From Actinomycetota bacterium (GTDB lineage: Bacteria; Actinomycetota; Actinomycetes; Nanopelagicales; Nanopelagicaceae), in assembly GCA_009698675.1 (NCBI GenBank), contig WLPT01000007.1, forward strand, positions 1-64,000: 64,000 bases of DNA, given 5' to 3'. This document shows, piece after piece, positions 12,569-43,316 of the stretch. The translations under genes and the position numbers were made by a program. Positions within the stretch are counted from its first letter, which is position 1. Every line of letters begins with the position of its first letter. The notes below the pieces were generated by a model, which was not told the origin of the DNA, did no database searches, and saw only the letters and a program-made list of their open reading frames with translations.

Positions 12569-13752
12569 TGCTCGATTTTAATGATCCGGCATTTATTGCA
12601 GATCCATATGCCGGATTACAAGAGTTACGCAGCTTCGGCAAGCCAGTCTGGCATGAGGGCTTAGGAATCTTTTTAGCCGCTTGCCATGGTGATGCCAACG
12701 ATGTCTTTCGCAACAAATCACTGGGACGAATCTTTATCGATAAGAAACCAGAATTTGAATGGGAGACTTTCAATTGGCTTCACTCAGATTCTATTTTAGA
12801 TAGCGAGCCACCAAAACATACGCGTCTACGGGCCTTGGTCGCTAAAGCCTTTAACCGAAATAAGATTGAGGGGATGCGACCTGCAATCGAGCGAATCACC
12901 TCTGAACTTCTAGATGCAATCGATGTGAAAGTTAAGTCCGGGGAAAACTTCGACCTGATCGCAGATTATGCAGAACCTCTCCCAGTTAGAATCATCGCTG
13001 ACCTATTGGGGTTTCCAGAGTCTGAAGAGCATCTGCTGCGCCCGTGGTCACAAGCGATTGTGAAAATGTATGAAGTAAATCCATCTCTTGCGTATCAAAG
13101 TGAAGCGAAGGCTGCTGCAGGTGAGTTCGCAGATTATGTGCGGGCTTTGGCGGAGGAACGGAAAAAGAACCCAGGTAGTGACTTAATTTCTGATTTAGCA
13201 ATGGTCGAAGAAAATGGCGAGAAGCTCAATATGCACGAACTTGTCGCCACCGCTGTTCTGCTCCTTAATGCCGGGCATGAGGCAAGTGTGAATGCCTTTG
13301 GAAATGGGATGGTTGAAGTTTTGCGTCGCCCAGATCAAAGCGCGCTTCTTCGAAATGATCCACGAGGTCTCACGGAAACGGCGCTAGAGGAGTTCATGCG
13401 ATTTGATGCCCCACTGCAGTTATTTGAGCGTACAGCTACGAAAGATACCGAGCTCGGGGGTGTCGCAATCTCAGAGGGTCAAAAGATTGCTTCACTCATT
13501 GGTGCCGCCAATAGAGATAGCTCGGTTTTTGAGAATGCCGATGAGATGGATCTGACTCGAGATCCAAATCCGCATATCGGCTTTGGCGCCGGAATTCATT
13601 TTTGTTTAGGTGCACCGCTTGCCCGCTTAGAAATGGGTGTCTCGCTACCTGCCCTCTGGGAAAAATATCCACATATGTCACTCGCAAACGAGCCAGTGCG
13701 CCGCCCAACTTTTGTCCTACGTGGTTATGAGAGTGTAGAGATTTCTGTTTGA
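12568..13752 (+). CDS. Cytochrome P450
   Basis: Heme Cys loop FGAGIHFCLGAPLARLE, ExxR (EEFMR), I-helix AGHEAS; ATG overlaps the add stop (TAATG). Confidence 0.96.
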   Translation: MLDFNDPAFIADPYAGLQELRSFGKPVWHEGLGIFLAACHGDANDVFRNKSLGRIFIDKKPEFEWETFNWLHSDSILDSEPPKHTRLRALVAKAFNRNKIEGMRPAIERITSELLDAIDVKVKSGENFDLIADYAEPLPVRIIADLLGFPESEEHLLRPWSQAIVKMYEVNPSLAYQSEAKAAAGEFADYVRALAEERKKNPGSDLISDLAMVEENGEKLNMHELVATAVLLLNAGHEASVNAFGNGMVEVLRRPDQSALLRNDPRGLTETALEEFMRFDAPLQLFERTATKDTELGGVAISEGQKIASLIGAANRDSSVFENADEMDLTRDPNPHIGFGAGIHFCLGAPLARLEMGVSLPALWEKYPHMSLANEPVRRPTFVLRGYESVEISV

Positions 13753-14621
13753 GTTGGATAAGAGGATTGAGCGCCTTTTTTTGTAACACTCAGGGATGCA
13801 ACTGTGATTCCAAGTGCGACCGCTTCGATTGGTTTCATTCCAGAGGCTAAGCCATATGCAAATGTTCCAACAAAGGCATCTCCAGCACCAGTCGTATCAA
13901 CTGCAGTGACAATTGGCGCCGATACTCGATTGATGGAACCGTCGGCATTGATTAAAACAGCACCGAGAGCGCCAAGAGTAACTACTGAATTCTTGCCGGG
14001 CCTAAAAGTCTTTAGAATTTCATCGCTAGTTGGAAGCTCCCCATGAATGGCAGCGAACTCAGTTTCATTGGGAATAATCCAGTCGCATAGTTCCAGTAAA
14101 TCCTGGGAAAGCAGTTGATACGGTGCCGGGTTTAAAATAGTTATGCAGCCGCGAGCTTTAGCGGCGATGAAGGCTGCAAGCGTGACTTCTTGTTTGATTT
14201 CACATTGGGCGATTACAACAGAGAGATTCTCAATGCTATTGATTGCAACCACTGCTCTTGAGCTCTCAATTTCATGATTGGCTCCAGGGATAATAATGAT
14301 TCTATTCTCGCCCGCTCCATCTACCCAGATGTGGGCTACGCCAGTTGCAGATTCCGATCGCTCCACAGACTGAGAATGAATACCTAACGTTGAGAAATTT
14401 TGAGCAATTGAATCACCAAATAGATCTCGACCTAAAGCGCCAATGAAGTGAACTTCGGCGCCGCAATGGGCGGCGATAACAGCCTGGTTGGCCCCTTTTC
14501 CACCAAATCCAGTGGTAAAGAGATCGCCGATGAGAGTCTGTCCAGGCCCTGGTAAAACGGCCGCATAAGCCGTTAAATCCATCATGGCACTTCCAACGAC
14601 TGCGACAACTGCTTTACTCAT
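13725..14621 (-). CDS. rbsK: Ribokinase
   Basis: GGKGANQA and DTTGAGDAFVG PfkB motifs. Confidence 0.93.
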   Translation of the reverse strand: MSKAVVAVVGSAMMDLTAYAAVLPGPGQTLIGDLFTTGFGGKGANQAVIAAHCGAEVHFIGALGRDLFGDSIAQNFSTLGIHSQSVERSESATGVAHIWVDGAGENRIIIIPGANHEIESSRAVVAINSIENLSVVIAQCEIKQEVTLAAFIAAKARGCITILNPAPYQLLSQDLLELCDWIIPNETEFAAIHGELPTSDEILKTFRPGKNSVVTLGALGAVLINADGSINRVSAPIVTAVDTTGAGDAFVGTFAYGLASGMKPIEAVALGITVASLSVTKKGAQSSYPTQTEISTLS

Positions 14622-14626
14622 AGCGC

Positions 14627-14633
14627 TAGGCTA
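14627..14633. promoter_or_regulatory. Shared -10 core TAGGCTA for divergent leaderless rbsK (-) and nucleoside hydrolase (+)
   Basis: + TAGGCT 7 nt before ATG 14640; - TAGCCT 6 nt before ATG 14621; intergenic gap only 18 bp. Confidence 0.6.
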
Positions 14634-14639
14634 CCCGTT

Positions 14640-15593
14640 ATGAATAAAACTTCAATGATTCTCGATGTCGATACAGGTGTCGATGATGCCTTTGCAGTTC
14701 TCTTTGCCGCCCTACATCCTGATATTAACCTCTTGGGTATTACCTGCGTTGATGGCAACACTAATGTTGATCAAGTCGTTGCAAATACATTGAAAGTTTT
14801 AGATGCAGCAGGTGCCGGAGATATTCCAGTAGCTCGAGGAGCTGTACGACCATTGCTAGGCGTTTCTCAGTATGCCGAGTATGTACATGGCGCCGATGGA
14901 ATGGGTGATCTTGGAATTGCACCTTCGACTAGAAAAGTTGACCCTCGTTCAGCCGTTGAATTACTTCGCGATCTAATTGAAGGTTCTAAAGATCCAGTGA
15001 CTTTAGTCCCCGTTGCACCGCTTACAAACATAGCGCTCTTTTTGCGTGCATTTCCTGAGAGCGCCAAAAAGATTCACCGAATTGTATTGATGGGTGGCTC
15101 GGCATCGGCAGGTAATGCAACGGCTGCAGCAGAATTTAATGTTTGGCATGATCCTGAGGCGGCAGCGATTGTCTTTCAAAGCGGAGTTCCGATAACAATG
15201 TATGGACTTGATGTCTTTATGCGCCCTGGCATTACCAGCGAAGAGGCGATTGTCTTAAAAAACTCTACGGCACCCGCTGCGCAGTTTGCCGGCTCCCTCA
15301 TTGAGGCATTCATCGAACGTTTGCATATCTCCCCAATCACGTTGGGTGATTTCGGTGCTGTCGCAGCGGCGATTCACCCTGAACTATTTACTACCGAAAT
15401 GTTCGATGTCGTTGTGGATACATCATCTGGCCCAGCACGAGGTCAAACTATCTGCGATCGTCGCGATGCATTTCTTAAAGATCTAGAACCTCTAGGCCTA
15501 GAAGATTCGGCGAAAGTGCGAGTTGTGATGGATCTAGATGTTGAAGGCGTGCGCCAGTTATGGCTTAAAACCATTGAAAAGGGCCGCTTTTAA
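14640..15593 (+). CDS. Inosine/uridine-preferring nucleoside hydrolase
   Basis: DVDTGVDDAFA N-terminal Asp cluster and NVWHDPEAA motif. Confidence 0.95.
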   Translation: MNKTSMILDVDTGVDDAFAVLFAALHPDINLLGITCVDGNTNVDQVVANTLKVLDAAGAGDIPVARGAVRPLLGVSQYAEYVHGADGMGDLGIAPSTRKVDPRSAVELLRDLIEGSKDPVTLVPVAPLTNIALFLRAFPESAKKIHRIVLMGGSASAGNATAAAEFNVWHDPEAAAIVFQSGVPITMYGLDVFMRPGITSEEAIVLKNSTAPAAQFAGSLIEAFIERLHISPITLGDFGAVAAAIHPELFTTEMFDVVVDTSSGPARGQTICDRRDAFLKDLEPLGLEDSAKVRVVMDLDVEGVRQLWLKTIEKGRF

Positions 15594-23585: not shown

Positions 23586-23765
23586 TCAGTTCGATCTAGC
23601 GCCGAAGCGAAAGTTGTTGTTAAAAGGTTTGCGCAATTGTGGAAGTCCAAAAGCGCTGCGACGTATCACAGGCTCTAGTTCTTCACGTTTGTGTTGAGCC
23701 ATAGCCGCATTAATCGCAACAAGCTCCTGCGCCGTTGGCTGACCCTTTGTAATAATAAAATTCAT
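23586..23765 (-). CDS. accE: Acyl-CoA carboxylase epsilon subunit
   Basis: Not in ORF track (59 aa): [62 protein letters not shown] overlaps accD stop (TAATG). Confidence 0.85.
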   Translation of the reverse strand: MNFIITKGQPTAQELVAINAAMAQHKREELEPVIRRSAFGLPQLRKPFNNNFRFGARSN

Positions 23766-25336
23766 TACAGTGGAATATTTCCATGCTTGCGGGCTGGCAA
23801 AGTATCGCGCTTGGTTCTTAGCGTCCTAAAGGCCTTAGTGATGTATGCACGTGATTGGTTAGGTTCAATGACTGTATCTATAGTTCCTCGTTCGGCGGCC
23901 AAATATGGATTTGCTAGTGATTCGTTGTAGTCATTTACTAATTCGGTGCGCTTACTGACCGGATCTGCAGCTTCGGCAAGATCCTTACGGTAGAGAATAT
24001 TTACAGCACCTTGTGCACCCATAACAGCGATTTCCGCCGTTGGCCATGCAAAGTTAATGTCACTTCCTAGGTATTTTGAACCCATAACGATAAATGCACC
24101 GCCATAGGCTTTGCGAGTTATTAATGTAACGAGCGGAACCGAAGCTTCGGCATATGCATACAGCAGCTTTGCTCCACGGCGGATAATTCCATCCCACTCC
24201 TGTTCAGTGCCCGGTAAGAATCCCGGCACATCAACTAATGTAAGAATTGGGATATTGAAAGCATCGCAGAATCGCAAGAAACGTGCAGCTTTTTCACTTG
24301 AATTAATATCCAAAGTTCCAGCTAATTGGGATGGCTGATTAGCGATTATTCCAATCGATTCACCCTCAATGCGAGCAAAGCCAACAACAATATTTGGCGC
24401 ATATAGTGCATGAACTTCTAGGAATTCTCCCTCATCGACAAGGGCTTGAATCAAGACCTTCATGTCATATGGCTGATTCGTATTATCTGGAATTAACGTA
24501 TCAAGGGCGGTATCTGAAGGTTTCGTATCTAAAGATTCAGTTGGTGGAAGATGAGGCGCGCTATCCATATTATTTGAAGGCAGATATGACAACAGCGCTT
24601 TGACGTAGTCGATTGCATCGGCTTCGTTCTCGGCTAAGTAATGTGAGTTGCCGGTGCGTGTGTTATGAGTACGGGCACCACCAAGCTCCTCCATATCTAC
24701 TTCTTCACCTGTAACAGTTTTAATTACATCAGGCCCAGTAATGAACATGTGCGAAGTCTCATTGACCATAACAGTAAAGTCGGTTAGTGCAGGTGAGTAC
24801 GCAGAGCCACCTGCACATGGACCTAGGATCAATGAAATTTGAGGGATCACGCCTGACGAGCGAGTATTTAAACGAAAGATTTTCCCGTAGCCAGATAGGG
24901 AGGCAACGCCCTCTTGAATTCGTGCGCCACCAGAGTCATTGATCCCGACAAGAGGAATTCCACTTTTAAGTGCAAAAGCTGCAATCTTGACGATTTTCTC
25001 GGCGTGCACTTCACCGAGTGAGCCACCCATAATTGTAAAGTCCTGTGAGTACAACGCGATAGGTCGACCATCGACGGTTGCCGTTCCAATTACAACACCA
25101 TCGCCATATGGACGGTTGTGCTCCATGCCAAACTGGGTCGATCGATGGCGAGCAAACTCATCTATCTCAGTAAAGGAGTCTTGATCGACGAGCATCTCAA
25201 TGCGCTCGCGCGCAGTGTGCTTACCCTTGGCATGTTGCTTTTCTACCGCGCGCGCCGAACCGGCATGGACTGCCTCTTCGACACGTGCGCGTAAATCTTC
25301 GATTTTCCCGGCAGTTGTATGCAGATCACGGCTCAT
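23765..25336 (-). CDS. accD5: Acyl-CoA (propionyl-CoA) carboxylase carboxyltransferase beta subunit
   Basis: [55 protein letters not shown]. Confidence 0.96.
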
Positions 25337-25341
25337 ACCCC

Positions 25342-25348
25342 TACGGTA
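25342..25348. promoter_or_regulatory. Shared -10 core TACGGTA for divergent leaderless accD (-) and birA (+)
   Basis: + TACGGT 7 nt before GTG 25355; - TACCGT 6 nt before ATG 25336; intergenic gap 18 bp. Confidence 0.55.
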
Positions 25349-25354
25349 CTAGGC

Positions 25355-26113
25355 GTGGACATGGAAATGCTAAGTGCGGCACTCGATAGTTCACATATCA
25401 ACACCATCGTGACGGCGTACTGGCGAGTAAGCGTGGTTGAAGTCACGGCATCAACACAAAGCGATCTCGTTGCATTAGTTGAGCAAGGTAAAGGCAAAAG
25501 TGGCGACGTGATTGCTGCCGAATTTCAAAGTGCAGGTCGTGGCCGATTAGCTCGAAGTTTTGAAGCGGCACCAGGTACTGCACTTCTTTTTTCTCTATAT
25601 ATTCAACCAAAACGCAGCCGTGATGATTGGGGATGGCTGCCCTTGATAGCCGGCGTAAGTGTCGCTCAAGTACTTGGGGATTTTGATGCGCAAATTAAAT
25701 GGCCCAATGATGTCCTCATTAATGGAAAAAAGGTTTCAGGATTAATTGCAGAAGTTGTAGGCGATGGAGTTGTTATAGGCATAGGGATAAATGCTGCAAT
25801 GAATACATCCGAGCTACCAGTACCGACGGCGACATCACTTTCAATTGAAGGCGCCCACAATCGAACGCGCAATCAACTCCTTGGTGAGCTTCTAAATATT
25901 TTTGAGGTTAACTTTGCCGCCTGGGAGCTTGGGAGCGATGAGATTCAAACCAAGTATCAAGATTTGAGCGCAACAATCGGCCGTGAGGTCCGAGTTGAAT
26001 ACCCTGGCGATCGCAGTGACATCGGTATCGCAATGTCAATTTCAAATAGTGGTGAGTTAGTTTTAGATTCAGGTGTGCATGTTCATGCCGGCGACATTAT
26101 TCATCTACGATAA
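25355..26113 (+). CDS. birA: Biotin--[acetyl-CoA-carboxylase] ligase
   Basis: ORF 25319-26113; GRGRLARSFEAAPGTALLFSLYI, IKWPNDVLINGKKVSGLIAE, GIGINAAM; start refined to GTG 25355. Confidence 0.93.
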   Translation: MDMEMLSAALDSSHINTIVTAYWRVSVVEVTASTQSDLVALVEQGKGKSGDVIAAEFQSAGRGRLARSFEAAPGTALLFSLYIQPKRSRDDWGWLPLIAGVSVAQVLGDFDAQIKWPNDVLINGKKVSGLIAEVVGDGVVIGIGINAAMNTSELPVPTATSLSIEGAHNRTRNQLLGELLNIFEVNFAAWELGSDEIQTKYQDLSATIGREVRVEYPGDRSDIGIAMSISNSGELVLDSGVHVHAGDIIHLR

Positions 26114-30557: not shown

Positions 30558-30593
30558 AGGCGAAGACTACTTCAGCGATACGGTGGTGGGGTT

Positions 30594-35341: not shown

Positions 35342-35347
35342 GTGCTA

Positions 35348-35364
35348 AGCCTAACCCCTATCCT
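35348..35364. promoter_or_regulatory. Divergent leaderless promoter pair: dapD (-) TAGGCT and LOG (+) TATCCT
   Basis: - TAGGCT (35353-35348) 6 nt before ATG 35341; + TATCCT (35359-35364) 7 nt before ATG 35372. Confidence 0.55.
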
Positions 35365-35371
35365 TTAGCGC

Positions 35372-43294: not shown

Positions 43295-43300
43295 GGGTTA

Positions 43301-43310
43301 AGGGTACCTT
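43301..43310. promoter_or_regulatory. Overlapping divergent -10s (AGGGTACCTT) for leaderless MgtE_N/CBS gene (-) and DMT transporter (+)
   Basis: - TACCCT 6 nt before ATG 43294; + TACCTT 6 nt before ATG 43317; intergenic gap 22 bp. Confidence 0.5.
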
Positions 43311-43316
43311 TCTCTC

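Follow-up and report, generated by a model that had tools for sequence, protein, structure and literature searches.

Putative bidirectional leaderless promoter with a shared -10 element between ribokinase-like and nucleoside hydrolase genes of freshwater Actinobacteria

A divergent gene pair separated by 18 bp

The window analyzed here, a stretch of 64,000 nucleotides, comes from a genome of 1.31 Mb, which groups with streamlined Actinobacteria of fresh water around Ca. Planktophila (acI). Two divergent genes lie next to each other in it, both predicted to be leaderless. The gene on the minus strand (rbsK, 13725–14621) encodes a ribokinase-like sugar kinase of the PfkB family (PF00294, E = 3.3e-64), and the gene on the plus strand (14640–15593) encodes an inosine-uridine preferring nucleoside hydrolase of the IU_nuc_hydro family (PF01156, E = 6.6e-85). 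The kinase scored 281 bits against the ribokinase model TIGR02152, slightly under the cutoff of 299.65, hence ribokinase-like is the safe name for this protein. An adenosine deaminase is among the genes near the pair. Judging from their translations, other neighbors appear to be cytidine deaminase-like, thymidine phosphorylase-like, and deoxyribose-phosphate aldolase-like, which would make the surroundings of the pair a nucleoside-salvage neighborhood.

The original prediction placed an 18-bp gap containing TAGGCTA between two divergent ATGs, in exact agreement with the sequence. The gap spans 14622–14639 and reads AGCGCTAGGCTACCCGTT, with the 7-mer at 14627–14633; the minus-strand ATG occupies 14621–14619 and the plus-strand ATG begins at 14640. 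No Shine-Dalgarno sequence was found in the gap on either strand, that is, before neither start codon. Since the upstream neighbor of each gene is the other one, in divergent orientation, read-through from an upstream operon is impossible for both. A motif-blind start caller placed the hydrolase start at 14655. We did not accept this candidate, as all main-clade relatives keep the ATG at 14640, whereas codon 6 is not always Met.

Two overlapping putative -10 hexamers

The 7-mer holds one predicted -10 hexamer for each gene. That of the nucleoside hydrolase, TAGGCT (plus strand, 14627–14632), is followed by 7 nt and the ATG, while that of the ribokinase, TAGCCT (minus strand, 14628–14633), is followed by 6 nt and the ATG, as had been proposed for both. 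The hexamers reciprocally overlap on opposite strands with an offset of one base. The hydrolase hexamer is preceded by CGC, a CGN extension, and the ribokinase hexamer by GGG, which is replaced by CGA, CGC, or CGG in many relatives. With 2 occurrences in the window against 4.7 expected, TAGGCTA shows no enrichment, and the bare 7-mer is thus uninformative by itself; what goes beyond chance is its position.

This position matches a signal found across the genus. In 400 kb of a relative (G082), TANNNT occurred before called start codons 36 times at a spacer of 6 nt and 20 times at a spacer of 7 nt, against about 4 times per position elsewhere, suggesting that leaderless promoters are general in the genus. 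A refined model of the genus -10 has a consensus close to G-R-T-A-G-G-C/G-T-T, with a strong G two bases ahead of the hexamer. Scores above 3 were obtained for 13% of gene starts, whereas random positions reached them in 0.4% of cases and ATGs overall in 0.6%; both starts of the pair exceed this value (3.49 for the hydrolase and 3.39 for the ribokinase). Within the leaderless set there was no enrichment of TTGA at 16–18 bp, no -35 was found for the hydrolase direction, and a generic sigma-70 scan of the region returned a single weak match, no better than chance, within the hydrolase gene. Leaderless promoters of M. tuberculosis are reported to display a CGN or SRN extension (CGN-TANNNT) and no -35 consensus (PMC3898074), and the genus pattern agrees with this.

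Conservation among relatives

Many of the relatives compared were MAGs, the nearest named ones being called Candidatus Planktophila sp., and the set included the complete genome CP015605.1 of Actinobacteria bacterium IMCC19121, in which the pair has the 18-bp gap. The main clade, defined by a hydrolase at least 80% identical, comprised 41 distinct loci. The gap was exactly 18 bp in all 41, and all 41 carried TAGG[C/G]TA, so that the expectation that close relatives would retain the 7-mer and its spacing was borne out. Six of the seven core positions (14627–14630, 14632, and 14633) were invariant. The remaining one, 14631, was C in 38 loci and G in 3, and the variant yields TAGGGT/TACCCT, leaving TANNNT intact on both strands. 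Gaps of 27 and 33 bp that appeared in six relatives were artifacts of extrapolating a diverged ribokinase N-terminus; a CAT (or CAC) lies exactly 18 bp away in these loci. Position, genus-wide spacing, and conservation can be read directly from the genomes, as can the recurrence described below.

A second clade, with about 76–78% identity, displayed a gap of about 23 bp. TAGCCT at spacer 6 does not serve the ribokinase in this clade; its -10 is probably TATTAT, which overlaps TAGGCT by TA. On the hydrolase side, TAGGCT is kept just before the ATG, with TAGAGT in one locus. The hydrolase -10 is thus the more widely kept of the two, and the shared arrangement belongs to the main clade. Two further loci of the same gene pair displayed a gap of 75 bp. 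Since the 23-bp and 75-bp versions exist, sharing the -10 is not essential. Natural variants of the pair with reduced or lost overlap are found at L085, L087, L088, and L090–L092, and at L089 and L093 (gaps of about 23 bp or 75 bp).

A probable ribokinase -35 inside the hydrolase gene

Conservation extends beyond the gap. Codons 3–5 of the hydrolase read AAA ACT TCA in essentially every main-clade relative and are synonymously frozen: T4 (ACT) and S5 (TCA) rank first and second among 121 near-invariant residues with four- or six-fold codons. On the minus strand, hydrolase codons 4–6 contain TTGAAG (14655–14650), 16 bp upstream of TAGCCT, which is a probable -35 for the ribokinase. Alternatively, the frozen codons may reflect a constraint on the start of a leaderless hydrolase mRNA. 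No synonymous constraint was seen in the first codons of the kinase, where a -35 for the hydrolase would sit. With TTGAAG read as the probable ribokinase -35, held in the frozen hydrolase codons, the promoter would exceed 18 bp. The original idea of an 18-bp promoter therefore stands for the gap as the core, but not for a promoter confined to it.

Recurrence at other divergent pairs

Pattern searches in five genomes (CAT-N5-TANNNTA-N6-ATG and variants) recovered the geometry at unrelated gene pairs; several further matches were discarded because a long ORF was missing on one side. Within the window, an acyl-CoA carboxyltransferase gene (minus strand, 23765–25336) and birA (plus strand, GTG at 25355; above the cutoff of TIGR00121 birA_ligase) are separated by an 18-bp gap at 25337–25354 (ACCCCTACGGTACTAGGC) with TACGGTA at 25342–25348. 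This geometry is kept in most retrieved relatives. An upstream ATG at 25319, chosen as the birA start by the motif-blind caller, was rejected, as a start codon corresponding to 25355 is retained in relatives. A metallophosphoesterase/MobA-like pair displayed the same geometry in mirror orientation, with TATCCTA. Both pairs are kept wherever the partner was found in relatives, with one exception (L184). In 800 kb of G082, a motif-blind gene caller identified four divergent gaps of 18 bp, every one of which has a central TANNNTA; base composition gives a chance of about 1% per gap for this. Together with the genus-wide spacing of 6–7 nt, the same geometry at unrelated gene pairs supports the proposed leaderless reading with a shared -10.

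A related arrangement was found at longer gaps. In the window, genes for an MgtE_N/CBS protein (minus strand) and an EamA transporter (plus strand) are separated by 22 bp (43295–43316, GGGTTAAGGGTACCTTTCTCTC), and the hexamers TACCCT (minus) and TACCTT (plus) overlap by the TA at 43305–43306. Overlaps of this type occur in several gaps of 22–24 bp (AGTCTAGGCT). A histogram of 246 divergent pairs in 182 ortholog groups from five samples, modest numbers obtained with a home-made gene caller, gave ortholog-group weights of 5.5 at 17–18 bp, none at 19–21 bp, and 6 at 22–24 bp. Strict TANNNT at spacer 6 or 7 on both sides was present in 67% of pairs with gaps of 17–19 bp, 67% of those at 22–24 bp, and 7% of those above 60 bp. 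We lean slightly towards reading this as a quantization of divergent-gene spacing by promoter geometry in streamlined leaderless genomes: the spacing would have a near-floor at 17 bp and fall into two clusters, at 17–18 bp with TANNNTA shared and at 22–24 bp with TA overlap, with nothing at 19–21 bp. The shared site would then hard-wire both genes to a single place where polymerase lands. If spacing is quantized in this manner, the intergenic DNA would amount to about one shared -10 and two spacers, and the genes linked by it would often be functionally related.

Further divergent gaps in the window are those at 30558–30593 (36 bp) and 35342–35371 (30 bp), the latter with TAAGCCTAACCCCTATCCTT unchanged in G082. 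A second recurrent motif, CGTTAGGCTA(T/G)CG, preceded by a G-rich and T-rich stretch, was found shortly before ATG (ATGACATC(A/C)ATGAC...) at L131 1742–1754 (G082:C1:1218741). Similar sites occur at L132, L133, and L142–L146. The motif looks like a leaderless promoter of a single direction, but has a symmetric extension.

Alternative explanations

The gap could also be read as a binding site, with the pseudo-palindrome CGNTAGSCTANCG acting as the operator for a regulator that binds as a dimer and controls nucleoside/ribose genes; the -10 elements would then lie within or beside this operator. The kinase and the hydrolase do form a coherent metabolic unit, and the 13-mer is symmetric in many relatives (e.g., CGATAGGCTATCG). 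Of 91 genomes, 32 contain CGNTAGSCTANCG in its exact form, mainly at this pair, with a few copies at other sites. The copy in the window, however, does not match the symmetric 13-mer in full, and the genome of the window has no exact copy of it. The outer CG would also result from two overlapping CGN-TANNNT extended -10 elements. Moreover, unrelated pairs keep only TA...TA and differ in the middle (TACGGTA, TATCCTA), which fits a -10 consensus better than a single regulator. We consider an operator quite improbable.

A promoter of one direction is a very improbable account of the locus. Here only one gene, most likely the ribokinase, would use this -10, and the hydrolase would have its promoter inside the ribokinase gene, giving its mRNA a 5′ UTR antisense to the kinase. 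The conserved TTGAAG does favor the ribokinase direction, and the score on the second strand could come from the symmetry of TANNNTA. Yet every clade with the pair keeps the distance of about 7 nt between TAGGCT and the hydrolase ATG, including those in which the geometry on the ribokinase side has changed. This ATG also lacks a Shine-Dalgarno sequence, and the 5′ codons of the ribokinase lack the synonymous constraint expected of a promoter in that place. Finally, a short motif in a compact genome might be a product of chance, kept through little divergence time or overlapping constraints, and the lack of enrichment of the 7-mer in the window is compatible with this. Nevertheless, hydrolase third codon positions have a mean consensus of 0.57 in the same 41 loci in which six of seven core positions stand at 1.00, and the geometry recurs at unrelated pairs, which leaves chance with hardly any credibility.

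Proposed mode of transcription

Based on the genomic evidence, we postulate that the gap is very probably a promoter that works in both directions from a shared -10, recognized by the housekeeping sigma factor, and that both mRNAs begin at or near the ATGs. TAGGCTA would supply two -10 elements offset by one base. RNA polymerase bound in one orientation would melt the element and start the hydrolase mRNA at, or within about a base of, its ATG. In the opposite orientation, aided by the -35-like TTGAAG in the hydrolase gene, it would start the ribokinase mRNA at or near its own ATG. Both mRNAs would be leaderless and translated from a 5′-terminal start codon. Over time, a single site would yield both enzymes, which act consecutively on ribonucleosides. 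It is from position, spacing, conservation, and recurrence that we infer the start sites, the use of the sigma factor, exclusivity, and co-expression at the pair.

If each mRNA begins at the A of its ATG, the predicted starts are 19 nt apart, so that two polymerases could not bind together, and mutually exclusive occupancy of the shared -10 is expected on steric grounds. Steric exclusion has been described for bidirectional promoters of E. coli, where basal activity is too low for competition unless one direction is activated (PMC12825309). By the same reasoning, an antagonistic switch need not follow here. We therefore accept a shared -10 with exclusive binding as the likely arrangement and do not claim a switch.

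This locus offers a clean, conserved, and minimal example, in abundant freshwater bacteria, of a single element of seven bases that should drive two leaderless mRNAs in opposite directions. The model predicts how close two divergent leaderless genes can lie and still function, and ties genome streamlining to promoter geometry. The 18, 23, and 75 bp versions of the same pair are natural variants that bear on the role of the shared -10 in the balance and noise of expression.

Relation to known systems

In M. tuberculosis, closely juxtaposed divergent promoters are common, and the prpD/Rv1129c pair has leaderless mRNAs; in the sections of this study available to us, no report of a shared -10 at such promoters was found (PMC3898074). 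The single-gene signal agrees with actinobacterial leaderless promoters as outlined in that study and in a survey (PMC3160421): the same TANNNT about 6–7 nt before the start, no -35 consensus, and a CGN/SRN extension. These accounts describe elements of a single direction, whereas here both directions are predicted. The restriction-modification systems EcoRV and CfrBI likewise couple transcription from divergent, overlapping core promoters, but these are regulated by a C protein and the EcoRV C transcript is not leaderless (PMC5333194).

The closest likeness is to the bidirectional promoters described by Warman, Grainger, and colleagues in E. coli and Salmonella, in which -10 elements also overlap reciprocally, often between divergent and functionally linked genes (PMC12825309, PMC10268837). 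In E. coli, the commonest distance between the starts of promoters with a shared -10 is 18 bp, and distances of 10 and 23 bp are frequent too (PMC12825309); Salmonella has the same 18-bp optimum (PMC10268837). Divergent starts of this class are 7–25 bp apart, and the distance predicted here is 19 nt. The preferred distances of 18 and 23 bp resemble the gaps of 17–18 and 22–24 bp found here, although those promoters were defined by mapped transcription start sites and the present one by start codons read from sequence. As start codons here appear to be the transcription start sites, promoter geometry would set the whole intergenic length. The proposed mechanism thus matches the known E. coli bidirectional type, and what would be new is its leaderless form, running from start codon to start codon.
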